Source: Thermoleophilia bacterium
Lineage (GTDB): Bacteria; Actinomycetota; Thermoleophilia; Gaiellales; SKUG01
Direction of reading: 5' to 3'
Assembly (NCBI GenBank): GCA_025964555.1
Contig: JAOPYQ010000015.1
Location: 62,001-126,000 of the forward strand
DNA: 64,000 nucleotides
Of this stretch, positions 16,149 to 28,403 are shown one piece after another. The notes beneath the pieces were generated by a model. It did not search any database. It was not told where the DNA came from and saw only the letters and a program-made list of their open reading frames with translations. Made by a program: the position numbers and the translations under genes. Within the stretch, counting starts at the first letter, position 1. Every line of letters begins with the position of its first letter.

Positions 16149-16531
16149 GTTCTCCTCGTGGTGGTGCGTGTGGGCGTGGGCGCACCTCGCCCGCAGGCAG
16201 GTGCACTCGTCGGGCGCATCGGCACCGACGGCGTGGGACTTGAACGGCCCGATGCGGGTCGAGCGGATCCGCAGCGTGAAAGCGGCCGGTCGCTGTCCGT
16301 TCCGACCGCTCGCCCGGCAGCCGCGACGGGTGCGAGCTCGGGCCAACGCGGTGGCCGCGAACACCCGTTGTTACCTTTTCGCGCCGTTCGACGCTTGTAG
16401 GGGTTGAAGCGACCGAAGGCGCCTTGCGCCGCCGGTTGCCTTGCGTTCGCTGGTGAGGACGTTCGAGACACACCGCCATGTGCCTCGACACCAAGATCCG
16501 AACCAGCGTCGTCACTCGTCGCGCCGTCCTC
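16149..16531. other. Intergenic region between divergent operons
   Basis: About 420 bp separate the polysaccharide operon (minus) and the sigma-factor operon (plus). I see no coding frame with a start signal or family match. The right end holds the sigma-factor promoter, listed separately. The minus-strand promoter for the polysaccharide operon must lie here, but I could not pick a convincing -35/-10 pair. A run TTACCTTTTCGCG at 16371-16383 is the most AT-rich point. Confidence 0.5.
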
Positions 16532-16560
16532 TTGGACGGCGCGACTCGTTCGTCTACAGT
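16532..16560 (+). promoter_or_regulatory. Promoter of the ECF sigma gene, probably leaderless
   Basis: TTGGAC (16532-16537) and TACAGT (16555-16560) are separated by 17 bp, a good housekeeping-type promoter. The start codon begins 9 nt after the -10 box, so transcription would begin at or near the ATG. There is no Shine-Dalgarno sequence. Confidence 0.65.
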
Positions 16561-16569
16561 GGACGCCCC

Positions 16570-17118
16570 ATGGCGGACCCGGAACTCGACACATTTCCCG
16601 TGCTGCTCGCGGACGCGCGCGAAGGCGATCGGGCCGCCTGGGAACAGTTCTACCTCCGATTCGCACCGTCGGTGCTCGGCTACCTGCGCTCGCAGCGCGT
16701 CGATGAACCCGAAGACCTGCTCGCCGATGTCTGGTTGCAGGTCGTGCGCGACCTGGCCGGGTTCGACGGCTCGGCGGACGGCTTCCGAGCGTGGATCCTC
16801 CGAATCGCGCACAACCGTCTCGTCGATGTTCGTCGCGCAGACGCGCGCCGCCCGGACGAAGTGATCGTCGCGACGCTCCCGGAGTTGGCGGATGCAGGCG
16901 ATCCGGCGCCGCCGGTCGATGATCAGGCGGAGCTGGAGCGACTGTTCCACGGTGTCCCGGCCACGCAGCGCGCGGTCCTCTACCTGCGCTACGTGCTCGA
17001 CCTGCCACAGGGCGATATCGCGACAGTGCTGGGATCGACATTGGCAGCGGTGAAGATGCAGCAGCGACGCGGGATCGACGCGATCTCGACACGGCTTGAC
17101 GAGGAGACGGACGCATGA
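16570..17118 (+). CDS. ECF-type RNA polymerase sigma factor
   Basis: The protein has 182 residues from the ATG at 16570. Sigma region 2 is seen as FYLRFAPSVLGYLRSQRVDE, then PEDLLADVWLQVVRDLAGFD and the -10 recognition helix GFRAWILRIAHNRLVDVRR. Region 4 follows: PATQRAVLYLRYVLDLPQGD and IATVLGSTLAAVKMQQRRG, a helix-turn-helix for -35 binding. It overlaps the next gene by ATGA. The pair has the layout of a sigma/anti-sigma operon. It has its own promoter at 16532-16560. Target genes are unknown. Confidence 0.9.
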   Translation: MADPELDTFPVLLADAREGDRAAWEQFYLRFAPSVLGYLRSQRVDEPEDLLADVWLQVVRDLAGFDGSADGFRAWILRIAHNRLVDVRRADARRPDEVIVATLPELADAGDPAPPVDDQAELERLFHGVPATQRAVLYLRYVLDLPQGDIATVLGSTLAAVKMQQRRGIDAISTRLDEETDA

Positions 17119-18188
17119 GCCGCGATGATGAACGGGAATCGAACGTGGGCGACCGCATCAGACGTGCAGCACAGCTCCCGTCGGTCGACCATCTCCTCGA
17201 TGCGCACGTGTCATTGATCGTCGCCGAACAGCGCCGCCTCGCGCAGGCGCGGGCGCACGGAGTCCAGGACAGGGCGCCTCGTCCGACCAGGACCCGGGCC
17301 ATGCGGCGTCGGCGGACGGCGCTCGTCGCGTTCGCCATCGTCGCGGTGCTGCTCGTTCCGGCACTTGCGCTCGCGGGCCAGCTGCCCGCGCCGATCCAGC
17401 GATTCGCCTCCAGGGTCGGGGATGCACTCGGCGTCGACGTTCCCGGGGGCCACCACGAATCGATGCGCGAGGATCGGACCGCGTCACGCCATCGCATCGT
17501 CACCGCGGCCGGTGCGCTGCCCGACGCCTCGTCCAGTGATCGGTCCACCGTCGCAGATGGCGCGGGTGATGATCATGGCCACGGAACGGGCCCGGGCACG
17601 ACCGACACTCCGACGGCACGAGCGCCCGTCGAAGGCCGACCCGACGATGGACCAGGCACGGTCGACGCACCCCTCGCCGGGCCCGCGGAACCCAGCGACC
17701 CGCATGCACCTTCCATCGGTGACCCCGGCACCGGGCTGGGAGTGGACAACGGCAGGTCAGAAGGCGGGACGGGGCGGGTCGACACCGACCCGAAGCCGGA
17801 TGCGACGAAGCCCACGCAGCAGCCGAAGGATCCCAAGCCGGAGCAGCACCCCACGCCGGGCGTGGGCGTGGGCGTGCGTCCGGACGCAGGCGTAGGCGCG
17901 GGCTCGGGCGCGGGACTCGAGCACGGGAACGCCGGCGGAAACAGCGCCAGCGCCGGTGGTACCGGGCATGCCGCCGCGGACGATCACAGCGCGGCACAGG
18001 GTCCCGGCGCGACGACCGACGACCCCCACGGCACTGGCGGCACGAGCGGCACCGGTGCCCGCGACGATTCCACCGTCGCGCATGCCACGCCCGCTCCACC
18101 CCCGGCTGGCGCAAGCACCGGTAACGCCGTCACCCACGGCAACGGGAATGCGGAGCTCGCTCCGAAGGGGCCCGACAAGGAACGGTGA
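17115..18188 (+). CDS. Membrane-anchored partner of the ECF sigma factor, low-complexity exterior
   Basis: The protein has 357 residues. The first 60 are cytoplasmic and helical (VGDRIRRAAQLPSVDHLLDA), with no clear Cys/His ZAS motif. A single membrane helix follows RAMRRRRTAL (about residues 69-88, VAFAIVAVLLVPALALAGQL). The remaining 270 residues are Gly/Asp/Thr/Pro/His-rich and probably disordered, with GVGVGVRPDAGVGAGSGAGL. Its start overlaps the sigma gene stop (ATGA). Position and topology suggest an anti-sigma factor that holds sigma at the membrane, but the sequence does not show a known anti-sigma domain. Confidence 0.65.
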   Translation: MSRDDERESNVGDRIRRAAQLPSVDHLLDAHVSLIVAEQRRLAQARAHGVQDRAPRPTRTRAMRRRRTALVAFAIVAVLLVPALALAGQLPAPIQRFASRVGDALGVDVPGGHHESMREDRTASRHRIVTAAGALPDASSSDRSTVADGAGDDHGHGTGPGTTDTPTARAPVEGRPDDGPGTVDAPLAGPAEPSDPHAPSIGDPGTGLGVDNGRSEGGTGRVDTDPKPDATKPTQQPKDPKPEQHPTPGVGVGVRPDAGVGAGSGAGLEHGNAGGNSASAGGTGHAAADDHSAAQGPGATTDDPHGTGGTSGTGARDDSTVAHATPAPPPAGASTGNAVTHGNGNAELAPKGPDKER

Positions 18189-18983: not shown

Positions 18984-20000
18984 GTGAACGTGACTGACAG
19001 TCACGTCAAAGATGCGGCAACCTCGACCGAGGATGCGACGACGGGCGACGCGCAGGACACGCGCGGCTCGGTCGCACGCGTCTTCGCCTTCCTGATCGAG
19101 CGTTTCCCACCGGCTCCGCAGCTCATCCTCATGGCGGTGCTGTTCGTCGCCGCGACGCTCATGAGCGCCGTGCTGCTTCCCGGATCGCTCACCGGCGCGC
19201 TCGGTGACATCGACGTCGCCAAGGCCATCGCCGGGTTCGTCGGCTCCCTGCTCTTCATCGTGCGCCTGCGCGTCTATGACGACGTGAAGGACGCCGACGC
19301 CGACCGCATCGAGAACCCGACGCGACCGATCCCGCGTGGACTCGTGTCGATCCGCGAGCTGGACGTCACCGGTGTCGTGATCCTGCTCGTCGAAGCCGCG
19401 CTCATCGCCTCGGTCGGAACGCTCACGTTCGTCGTCTGGGCGATCGCCGCCGCGTGGAGCGTGCTCATGCGCGTCGAGTTCTTCGTGTCGGAGTGGCTGG
19501 ACCGCCATCCGGCGACGTTCGCGATCTCGCACATGGTCGTGCTCGGCCTCATCTACGGTGCGCTGCTCGCGATGGGCATCGATGCCCGGGGCGGCGACAC
19601 GAGCGTCTCGGAGCTGCTGACCGAGCCGCTCGCGCTGTACGCGATGCTCGCCGCGACGAGCATCGGCATCGGCTTCGAGTGGGGCCGCAAGTTCGAGCGC
19701 TACTACGCGCCACACGGCGAGCGCGCCTGGTCGCTCTGGATCCTGTGGCCCTCGCTCGGCGCCATCGGCTTCACCGCCCTCGTGCGTGACACGTACCCGA
19801 CCTGGTCGCTGCTCGCGCTCGTCGTGGTGACGGTGGGGACGATCCTCGGTCACGCGCTCGTGATGACGCAGCGCGATCGATCGGGCAGCGTCGTGCCGAC
19901 CGGCAACCTGCGCGAAGCAGTCGAAGCAGTTCCCGGCGCCGCCGGACTGCTCGTGTACCTGGTGCTCGCATCCGCGGGCGTGACGGAGTTGATCGCCTGA
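18984..20000 (+). CDS. UbiA-family prenyltransferase
   Basis: The protein has 338 residues from a GTG (a second in-frame GTG is two codons later). About 45 polar residues precede eight or nine membrane helices. The first aspartate motif is DDVKDADADRIENPTRPIPR near 98-117, matching the D-x-x-D-x-x-x-D and N-x-x-R-P-I signatures of UbiA enzymes. They transfer a prenyl group to an aromatic, sugar or glycerol acceptor. The usual second Asp motif is not obvious; at its place is GFEWGRKFERYY. The stop overlaps the next start by one base (TGATG). It opens a six-gene run that looks like one pathway. Confidence 0.8.
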   Translation: MNVTDSHVKDAATSTEDATTGDAQDTRGSVARVFAFLIERFPPAPQLILMAVLFVAATLMSAVLLPGSLTGALGDIDVAKAIAGFVGSLLFIVRLRVYDDVKDADADRIENPTRPIPRGLVSIRELDVTGVVILLVEAALIASVGTLTFVVWAIAAAWSVLMRVEFFVSEWLDRHPATFAISHMVVLGLIYGALLAMGIDARGGDTSVSELLTEPLALYAMLAATSIGIGFEWGRKFERYYAPHGERAWSLWILWPSLGAIGFTALVRDTYPTWSLLALVVVTVGTILGHALVMTQRDRSGSVVPTGNLREAVEAVPGAAGLLVYLVLASAGVTELIA

Positions 20001-22747
20001 TGCCACACGCCCACGACCACATGAACCTCGACGGCCTCGAAGGGCGCATCGGCGGCAAGGGCGCGAAGCTCGCCCGGATGCAGACCATCGGGTGCAACGT
20101 CCCTGCGTGGTTCGCCGTGGAGGCCGACCAGTTCCGCCGCGCGATGGAGCATCCCGACGTGCAGTCGGCGATCGCGCGAGCCCGCGAACTCGTCGAACGC
20201 GAGCAGTTCGAGGAGGCCGCCGAGACGGTGCGCACGGCAGTGCTCGCGCTGCCGCTTCCGGAAGAGCTGCAGGCGACGGTCGTGCGCCAGTGGCAGGAAG
20301 ACCTCGACGGCGCCGTCATCGCGGTTCGCTCGAGCGCGATCGGCGAGGACGGCACCGACCACTCCTTCGCCGGCCAGTTCGAGAGCGTGCTCGGCGTCGA
20401 GACGCAGCAGCAGCTGCTCGATGCGGTGCGCCAGTGCTGGGCCAGCGCCTGGACCGGGCGCGCGGTCGCCTACCGCGCCAAGCACGGCATGGCGGCGCTC
20501 GACACGCAGATGGGTCTCGTCGTGCAGGTGCTCGTCGACGCGGACGTCGCCGGCGTCCTGTTCACGGGCGACCCCATCAGCGGCGATCCGTACACGAGCG
20601 TCGTCAGTGCGACCTTCGGCCTCGGCGAGGCGCTCGTCAGCGGCATCGCGAACGCAGACACGTATCGCCTTGATCGTCGCCACGACCACCTCGAGGTGGA
20701 GGTCGCCGACAAGGACGTGATGATCGTGCGCGCCTCGGCGGGTCTTACGGAGGAAGCCGACGTGCCCGAGCAGCGCCGCGGCGAACGCGCGCTGACCGAT
20801 GCGCAGGTGCGCGAGCTCGTCGCGCTCGGCTCGAAGCTCGAAGCCGCCGACGAGGGTCGCGCGCAGGACGTCGAATGGGCGATCGCCGACGGCGTGCTGC
20901 ACGTGCTGCAGACGCGGCCGGTCACCACGAAGCTGCGTCCGAAGGGCATCCGCCGCACGTGGGACAACTCCAACATCGTCGAGAGCTACAGCGGCATCGT
21001 GAGCCCGCTCACCTTCTCGTTCGCGCGCGAGGCCTACACCGCGGTGTACTTCCAGGCGCTCAAGCTGCTGCGCCTGCCCGACAGCGAGATGGAGCAGGCA
21101 AAGGTCGTCGTGCGCCAGATGCTCGGCTACGTCGACGGACGGGTGTTCTACAACCTCGCGTCCTGGTACTACCTGCTCTCGGTCATGCCCGACTACGAGA
21201 AGAACGCCGCGGCCATGGAGCAGATGATGGGCGTGCGCGCCCCGCTCGATCGCCGCACCGCGCCACCGGCGAACGCCACGCGCAAGGTGCGCCTGTACGC
21301 CGCGATGGGCTGGCAGCTCATCCGCGTCAACAGGTCGATCGCCGAGTTCCGCGCCAACGTGCGCCGCGTGCTCACCAAGTTCGACCTCGACTTCAAGGCG
21401 ATGGACTCCGACGAACTCGTCGACGCGTACGACCAGCTGCGCACCGAGCTGCTCGGCGACTGGCAGACTCCGATCGTCGGTGACACGCGCGTGATGATCA
21501 TGTTCGATCGTCTGCGCACGACGATCAAGAAGATCGGGCTCGACGACGAGGGCACGCTCCACAACGACCTCATGTGCGGTCAGGGCGAGGTCGAGAGCGC
21601 CGAGCCGACGTACCACCTCGTGCGCGTCGCGGAGCGCGTGCGCGCCAACGACGAGATGCGCGCGATCGTGCTCGACACGCCGGACGACGAGCTGCGTGAC
21701 GCGATTCGCGATCGCGGCGGCGAGCTGGGTGCATGGATCGACGCGCAGCTCGAGGACTACCTCGCCCGCTTCGGCGACCGCTGTGCGAACGAGCTCAAGC
21801 TCGAGACGCCCACGCTGCGCGAGCACCCGGCATTCCTGTACAGCGTCCTGCGCAACTTCGTGCGCCAGGAGGACCTGACCGAAGCGCGGATGAAGGCGCA
21901 CGAGGCGAAGATCGCCGCCGAGGCGATGGCGCAGGTCCAGTCGCGCTTCGCCGCGCAGCGATCGCTCCTGACGCCGATCCGCCGTCGCACGTTCGCATTC
22001 GCGCTCAAGCACGCCCGTGCCGCGGTGCGCGACCGCGAGGCGATGCGCTTCGACCGCACGCGCGTGTTCGGCCTGGCGCGCCGCATCTTCGCGGCGCTCG
22101 GCGAGCGCTTCCACGAGGCTGGCCTGCTCGAGGATCCGCGCGACGTGTTCTTCCTCGAGGTCGAGGAGATCATCGGCACGGTCCAGGGCACGACGACGAT
22201 CACCGACCTGCGCGGACTCGTCGGGCTGCGCAAGGCGCAGTTCGAGCTCTGGGAGCAGAACGAGATGCCCGACCGCATCCTCACCGTCGGCATCACGAAC
22301 GCCAACCCGCGCGACGACGCGTACGCCGCCGTGGACGTGTCCGGCGACTCGATCAGCGGCATCGGCTGCTGCGCCGGCATCGTCGAGAAGCCGGTGCGTG
22401 TCGTGCATTCCCCGGATTCCGGCGTCACGCTCGACGGGGACATCATGGTCTGCACGCGCACCGACCCGGGCTGGGTACCGCTGTTTCCCTCGTGCGGCGG
22501 CCTGCTCGTCGAGCGCGGCAGCCTGCTCTCGCACTCGGCCATCGTCGCGCGCGAGTTCGGCATCCCGGCCGTGGTCGGGATCCCGGGCCTCATGCAGTGG
22601 GCGCGCGACGGCGAGATGGTGCGCATGGACGGCACCGCAGGCACGGTGGAACGCGCCGACGTGCCCGTCGAGGCGCCCGAGGTCGACGATTCCGTGCCGG
22701 ATTCCACCGCGACACTTGACCAGCCCGTGCCAACGGGTACTATGTAA
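20000..22747 (+). CDS. PEP synthase / rifampicin phosphotransferase-like protein
   Basis: The protein has 915 residues, similar in length to RPH and PpsA. The ATP-grasp half has GGKGAKLARM near 16, then VIAVRSSAIGEDGTDHSFAG near 107 and DADVAGVLFTGDPISGD near 180, ending WAIADGVLHVLQTRPVTT near 300. A central helical region of about 500 residues would bind substrate. The C-terminal swivelling domain has GGLLVERGSLLSHSAIVARE with the likely phospho-His near 844. These proteins move a phosphate from ATP through His to a small acceptor. It lacks the PEP-synthase C-terminal TIM-barrel, so pyruvate is unlikely. Its partners suggest a lipid or prenol acceptor, which is an inference. Confidence 0.8.
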   Translation: MPHAHDHMNLDGLEGRIGGKGAKLARMQTIGCNVPAWFAVEADQFRRAMEHPDVQSAIARARELVEREQFEEAAETVRTAVLALPLPEELQATVVRQWQEDLDGAVIAVRSSAIGEDGTDHSFAGQFESVLGVETQQQLLDAVRQCWASAWTGRAVAYRAKHGMAALDTQMGLVVQVLVDADVAGVLFTGDPISGDPYTSVVSATFGLGEALVSGIANADTYRLDRRHDHLEVEVADKDVMIVRASAGLTEEADVPEQRRGERALTDAQVRELVALGSKLEAADEGRAQDVEWAIADGVLHVLQTRPVTTKLRPKGIRRTWDNSNIVESYSGIVSPLTFSFAREAYTAVYFQALKLLRLPDSEMEQAKVVVRQMLGYVDGRVFYNLASWYYLLSVMPDYEKNAAAMEQMMGVRAPLDRRTAPPANATRKVRLYAAMGWQLIRVNRSIAEFRANVRRVLTKFDLDFKAMDSDELVDAYDQLRTELLGDWQTPIVGDTRVMIMFDRLRTTIKKIGLDDEGTLHNDLMCGQGEVESAEPTYHLVRVAERVRANDEMRAIVLDTPDDELRDAIRDRGGELGAWIDAQLEDYLARFGDRCANELKLETPTLREHPAFLYSVLRNFVRQEDLTEARMKAHEAKIAAEAMAQVQSRFAAQRSLLTPIRRRTFAFALKHARAAVRDREAMRFDRTRVFGLARRIFAALGERFHEAGLLEDPRDVFFLEVEEIIGTVQGTTTITDLRGLVGLRKAQFELWEQNEMPDRILTVGITNANPRDDAYAAVDVSGDSISGIGCCAGIVEKPVRVVHSPDSGVTLDGDIMVCTRTDPGWVPLFPSCGGLLVERGSLLSHSAIVAREFGIPAVVGIPGLMQWARDGEMVRMDGTAGTVERADVPVEAPEVDDSVPDSTATLDQPVPTGTM
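22716..22743 (+). promoter_or_regulatory. Internal promoter before the DUF3419 gene
   Basis: TTGACC (22716-22721) and TACTAT (22738-22743) are 16 bp apart, inside the end of the PEP-synthase-like gene. They would transcribe the DUF3419, kinase, GNAT and ligase genes. The operator at 22743-22764 overlaps the expected transcription start. Confidence 0.65.
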
Positions 22748-22764
22748 GTAAGTACATACTTACA
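22743..22764. promoter_or_regulatory. Perfect 8-bp inverted repeat, likely repressor operator
   Basis: TGTAAGTA (22743-22750) and TACTTACA (22757-22764) form a perfect palindrome with 6 bp between. It touches the -10 box and covers the start of transcription. Size and position suit a TetR-family repressor. The regulator gene is not evident nearby. Confidence 0.7.
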
Positions 22765-22782
22765 CACAGGACCGAGCAGCAC

Positions 22783-23958
22783 ATGACCAGCGCCCCCGCA
22801 TCCATCGCCACCGACGCGACGCCCCTCGAGAGCGAGGTGGCGAAGCGTGCCGACTTCGGCCAGGTCCGCTACGCCCAGAGCTGGGAGGACCCGGAGAACC
22901 TGCGCGGCGCGATCCGCCCCGACGGCGATTCGCGCGTGCTGTCCATCGCTGCGGCCGGCGACAACTCCTTCGCGCTGCTCGTCCAGGGCGCCGGGCGCGT
23001 GGTGAGCGTGGACATGTCCCCCGCCCAGTGCGCGCTCGTCGAGCTCAAGCGCGCCGCGATCCTCACGCTCTCGCACGAGGAGCTGCTGCGCTTCCTCGGC
23101 GCAACCGAGGGCAGCGATCGCCTCGCGCTCTACATGCGCGTGCGCCCCGAGCTGCCGATCGATGCGCGCGACTGGTGGGACTCGCAGCCGCAGCTCGTCG
23201 CCAAGGGCGTCATCCACGTCGGCAAGCTCGAGAACATGTTCCGCATCTTCCGCACGCGCGTGCACCCCGCGCTGCACGGTCGCCGCACGACGCGCGCCGC
23301 CTTCGAGCCCCGCACGCGACTGGGCCGCGAGGAGTTCTGGCACGAGCGCTGGAACAACGTGCGCTGGCAGCTGCTCATCCGCATGTTCTTCTCCGAGCGC
23401 GTCATCGCGAAGCTCGGTCGCGACAAGTCGTTCTTCGAGCACGTGCAGATCGACGTCAGCAAGCACTACTCCCAGCGCGCCTACCACGCGTTCGTCGAGC
23501 TCGATCCGTCGACGAACCCGTTCCTGCAGTACATCCTCTTCGGCCGCTACCTCGACCTCGAGCACGGTCACCCGTACCTCGCGCCGCAGCACTTCGAGAC
23601 GCTGCGCGACCGCCTCGCCGACGGCGCCCTCGAGGTCGTGTGCGCCGAGATGGAGGGCTACCTGGGAACCTGCGAGCCCGGGTCGTTCACCGGCTACAAC
23701 CTGAGCGACATCTTCGAGTGGATGAGTGACGACCTGCACGAGCGCGTGTACCGGGCGATCGCACGCACGTCCGCTCCCGGCGGCACCCTCGCGTACTGGA
23801 ACAACCTCGTCCCACGCAGCGCGCCGACGTCGCTGCTCGCCAGCGGCGCCGTCACCACCGACCGTGAACTGGCCGTGCGGCTGCACGATGCCGACCGATC
23901 GTTCCTCTACCGCGATTTCCACGTCGACACCGTCGTCGATCCGGAGGCCGCACGATGA
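22783..23958 (+). CDS. DUF3419/BtaA-like S-adenosylmethionine 3-amino-3-carboxypropyl transferase
   Basis: The protein has 391 residues. The BtaA hallmark region is clear: VRYAQSWEDPENLRGAI near 29-45, VLSIAAAGDNSFALLVQGAG near 52-71, and VVSVDMSPAQCALVELKRAA near 73-92. In BtaA this Rossmann-like part binds S-adenosylmethionine, and the enzyme attaches its aminocarboxypropyl group to diacylglycerol to give the homoserine ether of betaine lipids. Conserved C-terminal pieces such as CEPGSFTGYNLSDIFEWMSD are also present. No BtaB methyltransferase lies next to it. AGGA lies 12 nt before the ATG. It overlaps the next gene by ATGA. The acceptor in this pathway is unknown. Confidence 0.82.
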   Translation: MTSAPASIATDATPLESEVAKRADFGQVRYAQSWEDPENLRGAIRPDGDSRVLSIAAAGDNSFALLVQGAGRVVSVDMSPAQCALVELKRAAILTLSHEELLRFLGATEGSDRLALYMRVRPELPIDARDWWDSQPQLVAKGVIHVGKLENMFRIFRTRVHPALHGRRTTRAAFEPRTRLGREEFWHERWNNVRWQLLIRMFFSERVIAKLGRDKSFFEHVQIDVSKHYSQRAYHAFVELDPSTNPFLQYILFGRYLDLEHGHPYLAPQHFETLRDRLADGALEVVCAEMEGYLGTCEPGSFTGYNLSDIFEWMSDDLHERVYRAIARTSAPGGTLAYWNNLVPRSAPTSLLASGAVTTDRELAVRLHDADRSFLYRDFHVDTVVDPEAAR

Positions 23959-25469
23959 ACATGGACCTCATCCTCCATGAGGCGCTCGGCACCGCGACGA
24001 TCGGTGTCATCGCCATCTCGGTGCTCGTGCTCGCCGAGGTGCTCAAGCGGAAGACGAGCCTGCCGACCGAGCTGACGCGCAAGTTCGCGCACATCGGCTC
24101 GGGCATGGCCGTGCTGCTCATCCCTGCATTCATCGACAGCTCCTGGACGGTGCTCATCCTCGCCGCCGGCTTCGCCGGCCTCATGTTCGGGACGCACGTG
24201 ACCGGCCTGCTGCAGGGCGTGCACGGAGTCGGCCGCGGAGTCGGCGGAGTGCTCTGGTACCCGGTCACCGCGTGGCTGACGTTCTTCCTCGTGTTCGACG
24301 TGCGCCACGGCGAATACCTCGAGTACGCGATCCCGATCCTCGTGCTCGCCTGCGCCGATGCCATGGGCGCAGTCGTGGGCAAGCGCTGGGGCCGCCACCG
24401 GTACGAGGTCGTGCCGGGACACTTCCGTTCCCTCGAGGGAAGCGGGGCGTTCTTCCTCGTGTCGCTCATCTGCATCGCGGTGCCGCTCGCGGTCGGCCTC
24501 GACGTCGACCCGCTCCGCGCGCTCGCCGTCGGCCTGCTCGTCTCGGCCCTCTCCACCGCCTACGAGTCGGTGAGCGTCCACGGTCTCGACAACCTGCTCG
24601 TGCCATTCGGCACCCTGCTCTTCCTCGACCGATACCTGACGCTGTCCTGGACCGAGCTCGGTCTGCAGGCGTCGCTCATCGCGGCGATCGCCGCGACCGC
24701 CTTCGCGATCCAGTGGCGCCGCCCCGCGACCGGTGGCGGAGCTGCCGCGTTCGTGCTGTCGGTCTACACCGTGCTCATCCTCGGTGGCTGGGCGTGGCTG
24801 CCGCCGCTCGCGGGCCTCGTCGCCACGTTCATCGCCTACGAGCGACTGACACCCGTACCCAACAAGTTCGCCAAGGTGCGCTACGAGATGGGCACCGCGC
24901 TCATCGGCCTCACCGTCCCGGTCGTGCTCGTGCTGCTGCACGCGTCCTTCGACGATGCCGGGATCCAGAACGCGCTCTACATCGGCTACCTCGCCTCCAT
25001 CGCCTGCCAGGCCGCCGTGCTCGCGTTCGTGCTGCCCCAGCACCGCTCCTTCCGGTTCGGGCGCATCCGCCGACTCGTCACCGTGAAGGATCCCTGGCAG
25101 CACGCACCGACCCCCGGCAAGCTCGTCTTCGCAGCGATCGGCGCGACTGCCGCGCTCGCCGTCCCGTTCGTCGCGATGCGCCCCGAGGCTGCCGCCAGCG
25201 CCGCCACCCTCGAGATCTCCGCCGTGCTGGTCGCCTGCGCGGCCGGTGTCGCGGCATTCATCACGCTCGCCGCCACCGCCTGCGCGCGCCGCGCGTGCGC
25301 CGCGTGCGGGAACGTCACCCTGCACGGCATGGGCTGCTGCCACGCGCTCGACCTGGGCAACGGCGACACCGTCTCGATGCGGACCCTCACGTTCCGCAAG
25401 ACCTACCTCGTCGCGAACTCCCTCGCGGCGGTCTCGGCAGCAACGGTGGTGGCCGCATGGAGCATGTAG
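23955..25469 (+). CDS. Polyprenol/phytol kinase-like (dolichol kinase family) membrane protein
   Basis: The protein has 504 residues and about thirteen membrane helices. The N-terminal half contains ELTRKFAHIGSGMAVLLIPA near 35-55, ADAMGAVVGKRWGRHRYEVV near 135-154 and FRSLEGSGAFFLVSL, the pattern of CTP-dependent phytol/dolichol kinases and cytidylyltransferase-like relatives (VTE5, SEC59). The second half (RRPATGGGAAAFVLSVYTVL and GWAWLPPLAGLVATFIAYER) recalls DUF92/VTE6-type phytyl-phosphate kinases, which would make this a fusion of both steps. That second assignment is tentative. Start and stop overlap neighbours on both sides, so it is co-translated with the DUF3419 and GNAT genes. Confidence 0.7.
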   Translation: MNMDLILHEALGTATIGVIAISVLVLAEVLKRKTSLPTELTRKFAHIGSGMAVLLIPAFIDSSWTVLILAAGFAGLMFGTHVTGLLQGVHGVGRGVGGVLWYPVTAWLTFFLVFDVRHGEYLEYAIPILVLACADAMGAVVGKRWGRHRYEVVPGHFRSLEGSGAFFLVSLICIAVPLAVGLDVDPLRALAVGLLVSALSTAYESVSVHGLDNLLVPFGTLLFLDRYLTLSWTELGLQASLIAAIAATAFAIQWRRPATGGGAAAFVLSVYTVLILGGWAWLPPLAGLVATFIAYERLTPVPNKFAKVRYEMGTALIGLTVPVVLVLLHASFDDAGIQNALYIGYLASIACQAAVLAFVLPQHRSFRFGRIRRLVTVKDPWQHAPTPGKLVFAAIGATAALAVPFVAMRPEAAASAATLEISAVLVACAAGVAAFITLAATACARRACAACGNVTLHGMGCCHALDLGNGDTVSMRTLTFRKTYLVANSLAAVSAATVVAAWSM

Positions 25470-26674
25470 TCGACAGCACGACCGGCAGCGTGACTCGCGC
25501 GACGAGCGCACGCCACGACCTCGTCATCCCCAAGGTCGCACCGACCACGCGCGTGACCGTGCGCTCATTCGACGTCGACGGTCCGGCCGCCATGGTCGAT
25601 CGCTTCGTCGCGCTCGGCCTGCGCCTGCAGCTCGAGACGCCGCTGCGCATCCCCCAGGCGGAAGAGGTCGTCCGACACCGCCTCTCCTCCGACTTCGGCT
25701 GGTACGCCTCCGGCACCGCGCGCCACTTCGTCGCGACGATCGGCGGCCGCGACATCGGTCGCTGCAGCGCGATGCTCGACCCCGAACAGCGCGACGAGGA
25801 CGGCCGCCAGGTCGGACTGATCGGCCAGTGGGAGTGCGAAGGCGGCGAGGACGGCGCGAGCGCCGCACACGCACTGCTCGAGCTGGCGACCGCCTGGCTG
25901 CGCGACAGCGACGCGCACCGCATCGTCGGCCCCGTCGACTTCTCCACCTGGTACGGCTACCGCTTCCTCGACGACCCGGGTGACGGGCGCGACCCGATGC
26001 TCACCGAGCCGGTCACGCCCTCGTATGCGATCGAGCAGTGGGAGGCCTTCGGCTTCACGCGCGACGAGACGTACTTCAGCGCCGAGATCCAGGACCCGGT
26101 CGAGCAGCTCGAGCTGGGGCGACAGGTCGCGAAGATCCTCGTCGACCAGGGATGGAAGGTCCGCCAGCTGCGCATGCGCGAGTGGGACGACCTCATGGAG
26201 CAGGCCCATGCCATGAGCATGGAGGAGTTCACCCGCCAGCCGTACTTCACGCCGATCTCGCTCGACGACTTCCGCGCGATGTACGCCGGCGTCAAGCGCG
26301 GCGTGGATCCGCGCTACGTCTTCACTGCCTGGTCGCCGGAAGGTGACTTCGCCGGCTACGTGTTCGGGGTGCGCGACCTCTCGCGCGCCGCCCGCGCACT
26401 GCAGTCTGGCGGCATCCGCTCGAAGGTCGCCGCACTGCGCGAGGCGTGGAACGCGGACACGATGATGGTGAAGACGATCTGCGTGGCGAAGCCGTACCGC
26501 AAGCTCGGCATCACGATCCTCGTCCAGCACGCGCTCTACGCAGCCGCGATGGACACCGGTCACTCGCGCGTGTGCAACATGCTCATGCACTGCAACAACC
26601 GCTCGCGCGACCTGACCGCCCTGGCCGGCGGCAAGGAATACCGCACGTACGTGACGCTCAAGCTCGACGCGTGA
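25457..26674 (+). CDS. Large GNAT-like acyltransferase
   Basis: The protein has 405 residues from an ATG 13 nt inside the preceding gene. It resembles double GNAT-fold proteins of the YghO type: an N-terminal half with VPLDFSTWYG-like sequence (IVGPVDFSTWYGYRFLDD near 154-171) and a C-terminal half with a motif A-like segment (TICVAKPYRKLGITILVQHA near 336-355). In the related families the CoA-binding fold transfers acetyl or longer acyl groups to amines. Near a BtaA-like gene that would create a lipid amino group, N-acylation is an attractive but unproven role. Confidence 0.65.
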   Translation: MEHVVDSTTGSVTRATSARHDLVIPKVAPTTRVTVRSFDVDGPAAMVDRFVALGLRLQLETPLRIPQAEEVVRHRLSSDFGWYASGTARHFVATIGGRDIGRCSAMLDPEQRDEDGRQVGLIGQWECEGGEDGASAAHALLELATAWLRDSDAHRIVGPVDFSTWYGYRFLDDPGDGRDPMLTEPVTPSYAIEQWEAFGFTRDETYFSAEIQDPVEQLELGRQVAKILVDQGWKVRQLRMREWDDLMEQAHAMSMEEFTRQPYFTPISLDDFRAMYAGVKRGVDPRYVFTAWSPEGDFAGYVFGVRDLSRAARALQSGGIRSKVAALREAWNADTMMVKTICVAKPYRKLGITILVQHALYAAAMDTGHSRVCNMLMHCNNRSRDLTALAGGKEYRTYVTLKLDA

Positions 26675-26714
26675 GCACGTGCCTCCTGCCCCGCGCGCGG
26701 GTATGGCCCGACCG

Positions 26715-28403
26715 ATGACAGATTCCGACACCACCACCGAGTTCGAGACCGCCGACGCCAACGTCGCGCGGCTCATGGTCGAGCTCCTCGACACCGTCGC
26801 GGACCGCCCCGCGTTCGTGCGCCTCGACGAGCAGGGCCGCACCGACCAGGTGATCACCTTCGAACGCCTGCACTCGCTCGTCGGTGCAGCCGCGGGTGGC
26901 CTGCGCGAACGCGGCATCGGTCGCGGCAGCCGGGTCGTCGTGTTCGTGCCGATGAGCATCGAGCTGTACGTGACGCTCCTCGCGGCGCTGCGCCTGGGCG
27001 CTGTCGCCACCTTCATCGAGCCGTGGGGCGGGCGCAGGATGATCGAGCAGGCCGCCCAGCTCGTCGACGCCGACGCATTCGTCGGCATCCCAAAGTCGTT
27101 CCTGCTGCGCCTCATGAGCCCCGCGCTGCGCCGCATCGACATCGCCGTCTCGACAGGCCAGCGCAAGGTGCCCGGCGCCGAGCGCTTCCAGGACCTGCTG
27201 CGCACGCCGACGAGCCAGCACGTGCTCGACACGGCTCGCATGGACAAGGACGAGCCTGCGCTCGTGACGTTCACCACTGGCTCGACCGGCACGCCCAAGG
27301 GCACGAACCGGACCCACGAGATCCTGCTCGCACAGCACCACGCGCTCGCGCGCCAGGTTCCCGATGCGGAGCATGCGCGCGTGTGGACCAACCTGCCGGT
27401 CGTCGTGCTCCACAACCTCGGGCGCGGCGTCGAGACGGTGCTGCCGCCCGACAAGGTCGGCCAGGACCCGATGCCCGACCCCAAGCTCTTCCACCAGCTC
27501 GTGTCACGATCGGGCGCGACGATCATGGCGCTCAGCCCTGCGCCGCTCGCGCAGCTCGGTCGCGCTCCTGGCCGTGCGCCGCTCGTCAACATCGAGCGCG
27601 TGTACACGGGTGGTGGTCCGGTCACTCCGGAGCTGCTCGAGTCCGCGAAGGCGGTGCTGCCGAACGCCAGCATCACTGCGCTCTACGGATCGACCGAGGC
27701 CGAGCCGATCGCCCACGCCTCCGCCGAGGACGTGCTCGCGCGGCGTGATGCGATGCGCACCCACGGCGGCATCTTCGTCGGGCATGAGGTCGAGGACGTC
27801 GACATGCTCATCGTGCGACCGATGCGCGGTCCGATCGACGTGGAGTCCGGGACGGCGCTTGCCGACTGGGCGGTCGCCGACGGCGCGCCGGGCGAGGTGC
27901 TCGTCGCCGGGGACCACGTCAATCGCGAGTACTGGCAGAACCCGGACGCCGTCCGCGAGAACAAGATCACCGACGAGCACGGTCGCGTGTGGCATCGCAC
28001 GGGTGACATCGCGCGTCGCGACGACGACGGCGGCCTCTGGCTGCTCGGCCGTCGCGGCGGCGGCTTCACGATGAAGGGCCGTCGCTGGTGGGCGCTCGAG
28101 ATCGAGACCCCGGTGACCGACCTGCCCGAGGTCGAGCGCGCGGCGATCTGCATGCCGAAGTTCACGGGCTCCGATCGGGAGTTCAAGAACGCCACGGCAG
28201 TGCTGGCCGTCGAGCCTGCTGCCGGCTTCACGCGACGCGACGCGAACGAGGCGACGGTCCGCGTGCTGCGCGCCCTCGGCGTGGCCGCGCAGATCGAGGT
28301 TCGCTCGCTCAAGAAGATTCCCGTCGACAAGCGCCACGCGACCAAGATCGACGTCGCCGCGCTCCAGGAGAAGCTCAAGCCGGAGAACCAGGATGACTAC
28401 TGA
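26715..28403 (+). CDS. AMP-forming acyl ligase, OleC-like
   Basis: The protein has 562 residues from the ATG at 26715; one at 26703 is also in frame. Adenylation motifs are clear: TFTTGSTGTPKGTNRTHE near 193 (A3), ALYGSTEAEPIAHAS near 325 (A5), RVWHRTGDIARRDDDGG near 428 (A7) and KKIPVDKRHATKID near 541 (A10 lysine). FIEPWGGRRM near 103 and NLPVVVLHNLGRG near 236 resemble OleC beta-lactone synthetases and related fatty-acyl AMP ligases. No oleA, oleB or oleD partner is present, so olefin synthesis is unlikely. It probably activates a fatty or hydroxy acid for the pathway encoded upstream. Confidence 0.75.
   Translation: MTDSDTTTEFETADANVARLMVELLDTVADRPAFVRLDEQGRTDQVITFERLHSLVGAAAGGLRERGIGRGSRVVVFVPMSIELYVTLLAALRLGAVATFIEPWGGRRMIEQAAQLVDADAFVGIPKSFLLRLMSPALRRIDIAVSTGQRKVPGAERFQDLLRTPTSQHVLDTARMDKDEPALVTFTTGSTGTPKGTNRTHEILLAQHHALARQVPDAEHARVWTNLPVVVLHNLGRGVETVLPPDKVGQDPMPDPKLFHQLVSRSGATIMALSPAPLAQLGRAPGRAPLVNIERVYTGGGPVTPELLESAKAVLPNASITALYGSTEAEPIAHASAEDVLARRDAMRTHGGIFVGHEVEDVDMLIVRPMRGPIDVESGTALADWAVADGAPGEVLVAGDHVNREYWQNPDAVRENKITDEHGRVWHRTGDIARRDDDGGLWLLGRRGGGFTMKGRRWWALEIETPVTDLPEVERAAICMPKFTGSDREFKNATAVLAVEPAAGFTRRDANEATVRVLRALGVAAQIEVRSLKKIPVDKRHATKIDVAALQEKLKPENQDDY

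Follow-up and report, generated by a model that had tools for sequence, protein, structure and literature searches.

To our knowledge, DUF3419 enzymes have been well characterised only in betaine-lipid synthesis, where they are of the BtaA type. In the BtaA/BtaB system of DGTS, BtaA moves an aminocarboxypropyl group from SAM to diacylglycerol (PMC3972451; PMC10491745). The other described systems closest to the locus reported here are the ceramide synthesis of Caulobacter (Spt, CerR, CerS and AasR), the RPH and PigC/RedH enzymes, the OleC beta-lactone synthetase, and prenol salvage with UbiA, in which VTE5 phosphorylates phytol, with a preference for CTP, and VTE6 phosphorylates phytyl phosphate (PMC9782597). 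We analysed a 64,000-nt stretch (the window) of a Thermoleophilia MAG (2.7 Mb, 64% complete), in which an earlier note had proposed an undescribed lipid pathway encoded by six adjacent genes. It is well supported that these six genes make up a single lipid-type pathway that is neither the betaine-lipid nor the olefin pathway, and no description of it was found in the open-access literature searched. The proposal is partly supported: it stands as far as a conserved six-family unit of lipid type is concerned, and the isoprenoid lipid with an N-acylated homoserine-type head that it predicts is a putative product, discussed below.

The six genes are packed on the plus strand at 18984–28403, and the overlaps that the earlier note had listed are borne out by the open reading frames. 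The gene for a UbiA-superfamily integral membrane protein (18984–20000) meets that for an RPH/PigC-type dikinase (20000–22747) in a TGATG junction. The gene for the DUF3419 enzyme, a probable SAM 3-amino-3-carboxypropyl transferase (22783–23958), shares ATGA (a 4-bp overlap) with a gene encoding a prenol/dolichol-kinase-like (VTE5-type) membrane domain and a C-terminal membrane half (23955–25469), which itself overlaps by 13 bp the gene for a GNAT-fold acyltransferase that has its relatives among the ceramide synthases of bacteria (CerS/CC_1154 type; 25457–26674). The last gene encodes an AMP-forming acyl ligase that falls in the PRK09274/OleC-like group (26679–28403); its mechanically called start at GTG 26679 is uncertain, with ATG 26703 or a later start possible. 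GC content is uniform across the cluster (0.68–0.70), and a GC3 of 0.89–0.93 in all six genes fits the 70% GC genome, so the frames look like real genes. Pfam upheld the family calls made earlier for the DUF3419, dikinase, AMP-ligase and GNAT proteins, whereas the UbiA call is borderline and the kinase, which matched no Pfam or NCBIfam model, is tentatively assigned through its homologues. PDB profile searches gave no match for the DUF3419, kinase or GNAT proteins, and AlphaFold models of the DUF3419 protein and the kinase reached a pLDDT of 37 and 42, respectively, values too low for either model to be informative.

The complete cluster recurs in a second phylum. On plasmid unnamed3 of Roseinatronobacter sp. 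S2, the one record shared by plasmid searches with the kinase, DUF3419 and GNAT proteins, all six genes have the same order and orientation as in the window and are annotated, on one strand, as UbiA, PEP/pyruvate-binding, DUF3419, hypothetical (the kinase), hypothetical (the GNAT) and AMP-binding. BLAST identities to the window proteins, in gene order, are 30, 35, 40, 30 (N-terminal half of the kinase), 27 and 34%. A six-gene order shared between two phyla is far beyond coincidence. This alphaproteobacterium was isolated from a pH 12 serpentinizing spring (PMC10508151), and as a sequenced isolate carrying the entire operon it makes the product directly searchable. The earlier note had suggested looking for co-occurrence of the six families in other genomes, with a lack of co-conservation among related genomes counting against a pathway; the families do co-occur, and lack of co-conservation is contradicted by the synteny in S2 together with the joint loss in congeners described below.

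Beyond these instances the cluster is rare. DUF3419 proteins of any kind were found in 3 of 397 genomes of the phylum and 3 of 399 of the class, and within the order (129 genomes) in the source genome (G000) and one congener, G003, only. No further cluster outside the genus emerged from these scans, the DUF3419 matches in G210 and G451 being without cluster partners. Queries of plasmids with the S2 kinase, UbiA and GNAT proteins returned no third cluster, no relatives turned up among viral contigs, and one scan of genome contigs yielded only the congener record. The cluster was thus found in only two independent lineages, and this patchy presence, along with its plasmid home in S2, suggests that it has spread horizontally.

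The congeners provide a natural contrast between presence and absence. In the congener MAG G003 (Thermoleophilia bacterium isolate RYN_234, record JAOPYS010000183.1), the UbiA, dikinase, DUF3419 and kinase genes lie together on a 6.3-kb contig with 72–82% identity to the window, and the ligase (85%) sits at the end of another contig whose right flank is the same as in the window; the GNAT was not found, and its expected position coincides with an assembly gap. The dikinase gene of G003 (L005 1154–3880) contains one in-frame TAG at codon 560, beyond which the alignment continues; the codon reflects either a genuine nonsense mutation or a fault of the assembly. Two further congeners, G001 and G002, conserve the left flank (window approximately 12.2–16.2 kb) but lack the four middle genes, with no DUF3419 or GNAT found in either. 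The flank is followed in G001 by a UbiA-like ORF alone (L051 5274–6143) and in G002 by a UbiA-like ORF and a ligase (L050 13159–15830). Neither UbiA ORF retains DDxKDxxxD, and in the G002 ligase VGRGGVPVG stands where the P-loop TGSTGTPKG is expected, while RDPTRID replaces RHATKID and so alters the C-terminal lysine. Nei–Gojobori dN/dS values, indicative only at a dS of 0.58–0.99, are 0.59–0.88 for the UbiA remnants and 0.39 for the G002 ligase, where the corresponding values of the kept pair are 0.32 and 0.19. We infer that the state of G001 and G002 arose by loss from a common ancestor. The outer two genes no longer look enzyme-like once the middle four are gone, which argues that the six form one functional unit; this joint decay is the strongest evidence that they have a single purpose, and a dispensable one. 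The UbiA-like and ligase frames of G001 and G002 are long and open, without stop codons, despite their lost catalytic motifs, and could represent either genes decaying at high GC or proteins repurposed for non-catalytic roles.

Among the individual enzymes, the DUF3419 protein is assigned to its family by Pfam score (218.5 bits, cut-off 28.2; E 2e-64), and it has in common with BtaA the YxQxWED motif and a SAM-site-like VxxVDxxP. It likely performs the same chemistry, and the transfer of aminocarboxypropyl from SAM that had been proposed for it is carried forward here on homology. In our tree, the cluster proteins form a clade of their own (90/99), apart from the canonical BtaA clade of Rhizobium, Shinella and Sinorhizobium (97/99), and their identity to canonical rhizobial BtaA proteins is 22–26%. 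In R. leguminosarum a methyltransferase gene comes after the DUF3419 gene, the arrangement expected of BtaA–BtaB, whereas neither the window cluster nor the S2 cluster contains a BtaB-type methyltransferase; five other enzymes accompany the DUF3419 protein instead, and the GNAT among them suggests N-acylation in place of N-methylation. Because identity to BtaA is approximately 25% and relatives occur in adenylation-enzyme and KAS III neighborhoods, the acceptor could also be a non-lipid.

The GNAT scored barely above the cut-off of Acetyltransf_1 in Pfam, a weak match, but aligned over its full length (25% identity over 381 aa, E 1e-13) with a Roseomonas protein encoded in a Caulobacter-type sphingolipid region, alongside genes for LptF/LptG, a CDP-alcohol phosphotransferase, an acyl-AMP ligase and an epimerase. 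The surroundings of Caulobacter CC_1154 (cerS) match this gene set (PMC11324152), and the N-acylation predicted by the earlier note is supported through homology to a ceramide synthase. Another relative, on a Streptomyces plasmid, adjoins class I/II aminotransferase and epimerase genes. As in Caulobacter, the CerS-like GNAT is paired with an AMP-forming acyl ligase, whereas Spt, CerR and ACP are absent from the cluster; one Streptomyces Spt query found no match in G000–G003, a search of incomplete MAGs that had no positive control. The ligase itself (Pfam AMP-binding, E 3e-43) keeps the P-loop TTGSTGTPKG and the lysine of the C-terminal KRHATKID. Its description as OleC-like holds at the level of the PRK09274/OleC-like AMP-forming group but not for OleC proper, as it scored 184.8 and 196.9 bits against OleC models with cut-offs of 850 and 900, and oleA, oleB and oleD are missing from the cluster.

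The kinase-like domain spans approximately residues 1–235, the remainder being the membrane C-terminal half. Its homologues in two complete genomes, G202 and G403, occur in one open frame with DUF92-type sequence (the DUF92 model was run for G202, whose frame the one in G403 matches in layout), which supports the kinase-family call, and RKxxH and GxDN are common to the cluster domain and to these homologous domains. VTE6 is a DUF92 protein. The cluster resembles prenol salvage in joining a VTE5-like kinase domain and a UbiA-like protein in one operon, but it has an RPH-type dikinase in place of a DUF92 protein. The single frames that join VTE5-like and DUF92-type sequences, found in two complete actinobacterial genomes (L012 8852–10627; L013 8894–11236), are candidates for a fused kinase leading from prenol to prenyl diphosphate.

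The dikinase comprises an ATP-grasp/PPDK_N domain (residues 16–312; E 5e-74), a substrate domain and a C-terminal PEP-utilizers domain (812–881; E 9e-22). It aligns with RPH structures in the ATP-grasp and C-terminal parts, with the swivel His845 and the apex R679–E680 aligned to RPH-Lm. RPH and PigC/RedH have the identical domain order, including the swivel histidine; the cluster protein differs from them in its diverged substrate domain, its lipid-type gene context and scores far under the equivalog cut-offs (391.8 against 999 for RPH; 352.3 against 1300 and 363.9 against 1350 for PigC/RedH). Since even the best model, NF004881, was missed (846.7, cut-off 883), the dikinase passes into no named family, and it resembles the condensing enzymes PigC/RedH equally. 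PEP synthase was rejected: TIGR01418 scored 273.5 against 739.75, and Pfam found no PEP-utilizers_C, the C-terminal domain that binds PEP/pyruvate. Two rows of the dikinase tree, L033 and L034, are wrong-frame extractions and were disregarded.

The UbiA-like protein has seven hydrophobic segments and on its own scored 30.0 bits against Pfam UbiA (cut-off 34.2); within the context of its genome it reached 34.4, and its S2 orthologue 43.9. The nearest solved structure is DGGGP synthase (6m31). The first Asp motif, D(D/E)xKDxxxD...RPIPRG, is kept in the window (as DDxKDxxxD...RPIPRG), G003 and S2, whereas the second (DxxxD) is ExxRK in all three and also in the homologue from S. clavuligerus. The earlier reading of a prenyl transferase is thus favored by the first motif but not by the second, whose absence means that the protein may not be a prenyltransferase and sets it apart from the UbiA of prenol salvage. 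EboC, prompted by a Salipiger match, was rejected (30 against 250).

From these families we infer every reaction and its place in the sequence, as well as the product and its isoprenoid core. The VTE5-like kinase, together with the RPH-type dikinase, would phosphorylate, and so activate, a lipid alcohol that is probably isoprenoid, and the UbiA-like protein would join or rearrange the activated unit within the membrane. The DUF3419 enzyme would then place aminocarboxypropyl on a hydroxyl, as BtaA does on diacylglycerol, while activation of a fatty acid would fall to the ligase and acylation of the free amine to the ceramide-synthase-like GNAT. For the DUF3419, ligase and GNAT steps the functional analogies are closer than for the other three, and a role of the dikinase as a second prenyl kinase is a guess; since related dikinases adjoin AfsA genes, in one case together with a UbiA-like gene, the UbiA-like/dikinase pair may have another role, for instance to prepare a carbonyl or hydroxyl for condensation in the manner of PigC/RedH-type enzymes. 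The product that we tentatively favor, at somewhat less than an even chance, is a lipid-type molecule with a 3-amino-3-carboxypropyl group of homoserine type, derived from SAM, and an acyl chain in amide linkage. The conserved combination, in one operon, of a DUF3419 enzyme with an N-acyltransferase resembling ceramide synthase, an RPH-type dikinase and a protein of prenol-kinase-like sequence predicts a lipid or lipid-like metabolite new to the literature searched. A bolder version, which we regard as unlikely, is a new class of glycerol-free or ether-type isoprenoid lipid with an N-acyl-homoserine head, in which the DUF3419 enzyme would act on a prenol-derived hydroxyl, the dikinase would replace the second prenyl kinase, and the plasmid-mobile cluster would perhaps serve at high pH or low phosphate.

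The main and serious rival, itself somewhat unlikely, is that the genes form one pathway that makes, instead of a membrane lipid, a specialised metabolite or signal that is secreted and resembles a butyrolactone or an acyl amino acid. S. clavuligerus has a dikinase and UbiA-like pair within an AfsA/ICMT cluster, which points away from a membrane compound, a related dikinase adjoins AfsA in S. durmitorensis, and further relatives adjoin P450 or FAD enzymes; the occurrence of DUF3419 relatives in clusters with adenylation enzymes or KAS III, and the patchy distribution and loss of the cluster, would fit a signal as well. A lipid is better suited by the ceramide-synthase-type GNAT, the prenol-kinase-type kinase and the presence of two polytopic membrane proteins among the six, and the cluster has no conserved exporter, P450 or carrier protein. 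Quite improbable, in our view, is a glycerolipid variant in which the DUF3419 enzyme produces diacylglyceryl-homoserine, the kinase has diacylglycerol as its substrate in the manner of DGK1, the GNAT and ligase N-acylate the head to give a three-chain lipid, and the UbiA-like protein and dikinase modify chain or head. Yeast DGK1 is indeed a dolichol-kinase-family enzyme. Diacylglycerol is also the substrate of BtaA (PMC3972451), but this variant gives the UbiA-like protein and the dikinase no clear role, the DUF3419 clade stands apart from canonical BtaA, and the joining of kinase homologues to DUF92 points to prenols. Every protein falls in a known superfamily, as six unrelated neighbors with separate known roles would, but an identical six-gene order in another phylum and the joint loss of genes and catalytic motifs in congeners make this extremely improbable. 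The chance of a BtaAB or OleABCD pathway is smaller still, as the DUF3419 domain and OleC-like ligase that recall them lie outside the canonical BtaA clade and far below the OleC cut-offs, and both intact clusters lack a BtaB-type methyltransferase and oleA, oleB and oleD, in agreement with the earlier note.

Several neighborhoods drew our attention in their own right. The S. clavuligerus cluster is plasmid-borne (L023 4355–11033) and runs AfsA, ICMT-like protein, RPH-type dikinase, UbiA-like protein and oxidoreductase. In another Thermoleophilia genome (G653, L029 8125–18436), a DUF3419 gene lies near genes for an adenylation enzyme, a thioester-reductase-like protein and an ABC transporter, possibly a specialised-metabolite cluster that uses aminocarboxypropyl transfer, and a Rhizobium plasmid operon (L026 817–7155) sets DUF3419 in a non-BtaAB context of KAS III, oxidoreductase, MBL hydrolase, 'CoF synthetase' and a hypothetical protein. 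Directly upstream of the window cluster, on the plus strand, lies the gene for an ECF sigma factor (16441–17118), a possible regulator of the cluster; it overlaps the gene of a single-TM protein (17115–18188), a probable anti-sigma factor with one hydrophobic segment. At the corresponding syntenic position of G001 and G002, both without the cluster, no DNA match to these two genes was found, and the conserved flank passes almost directly into the UbiA remnant.
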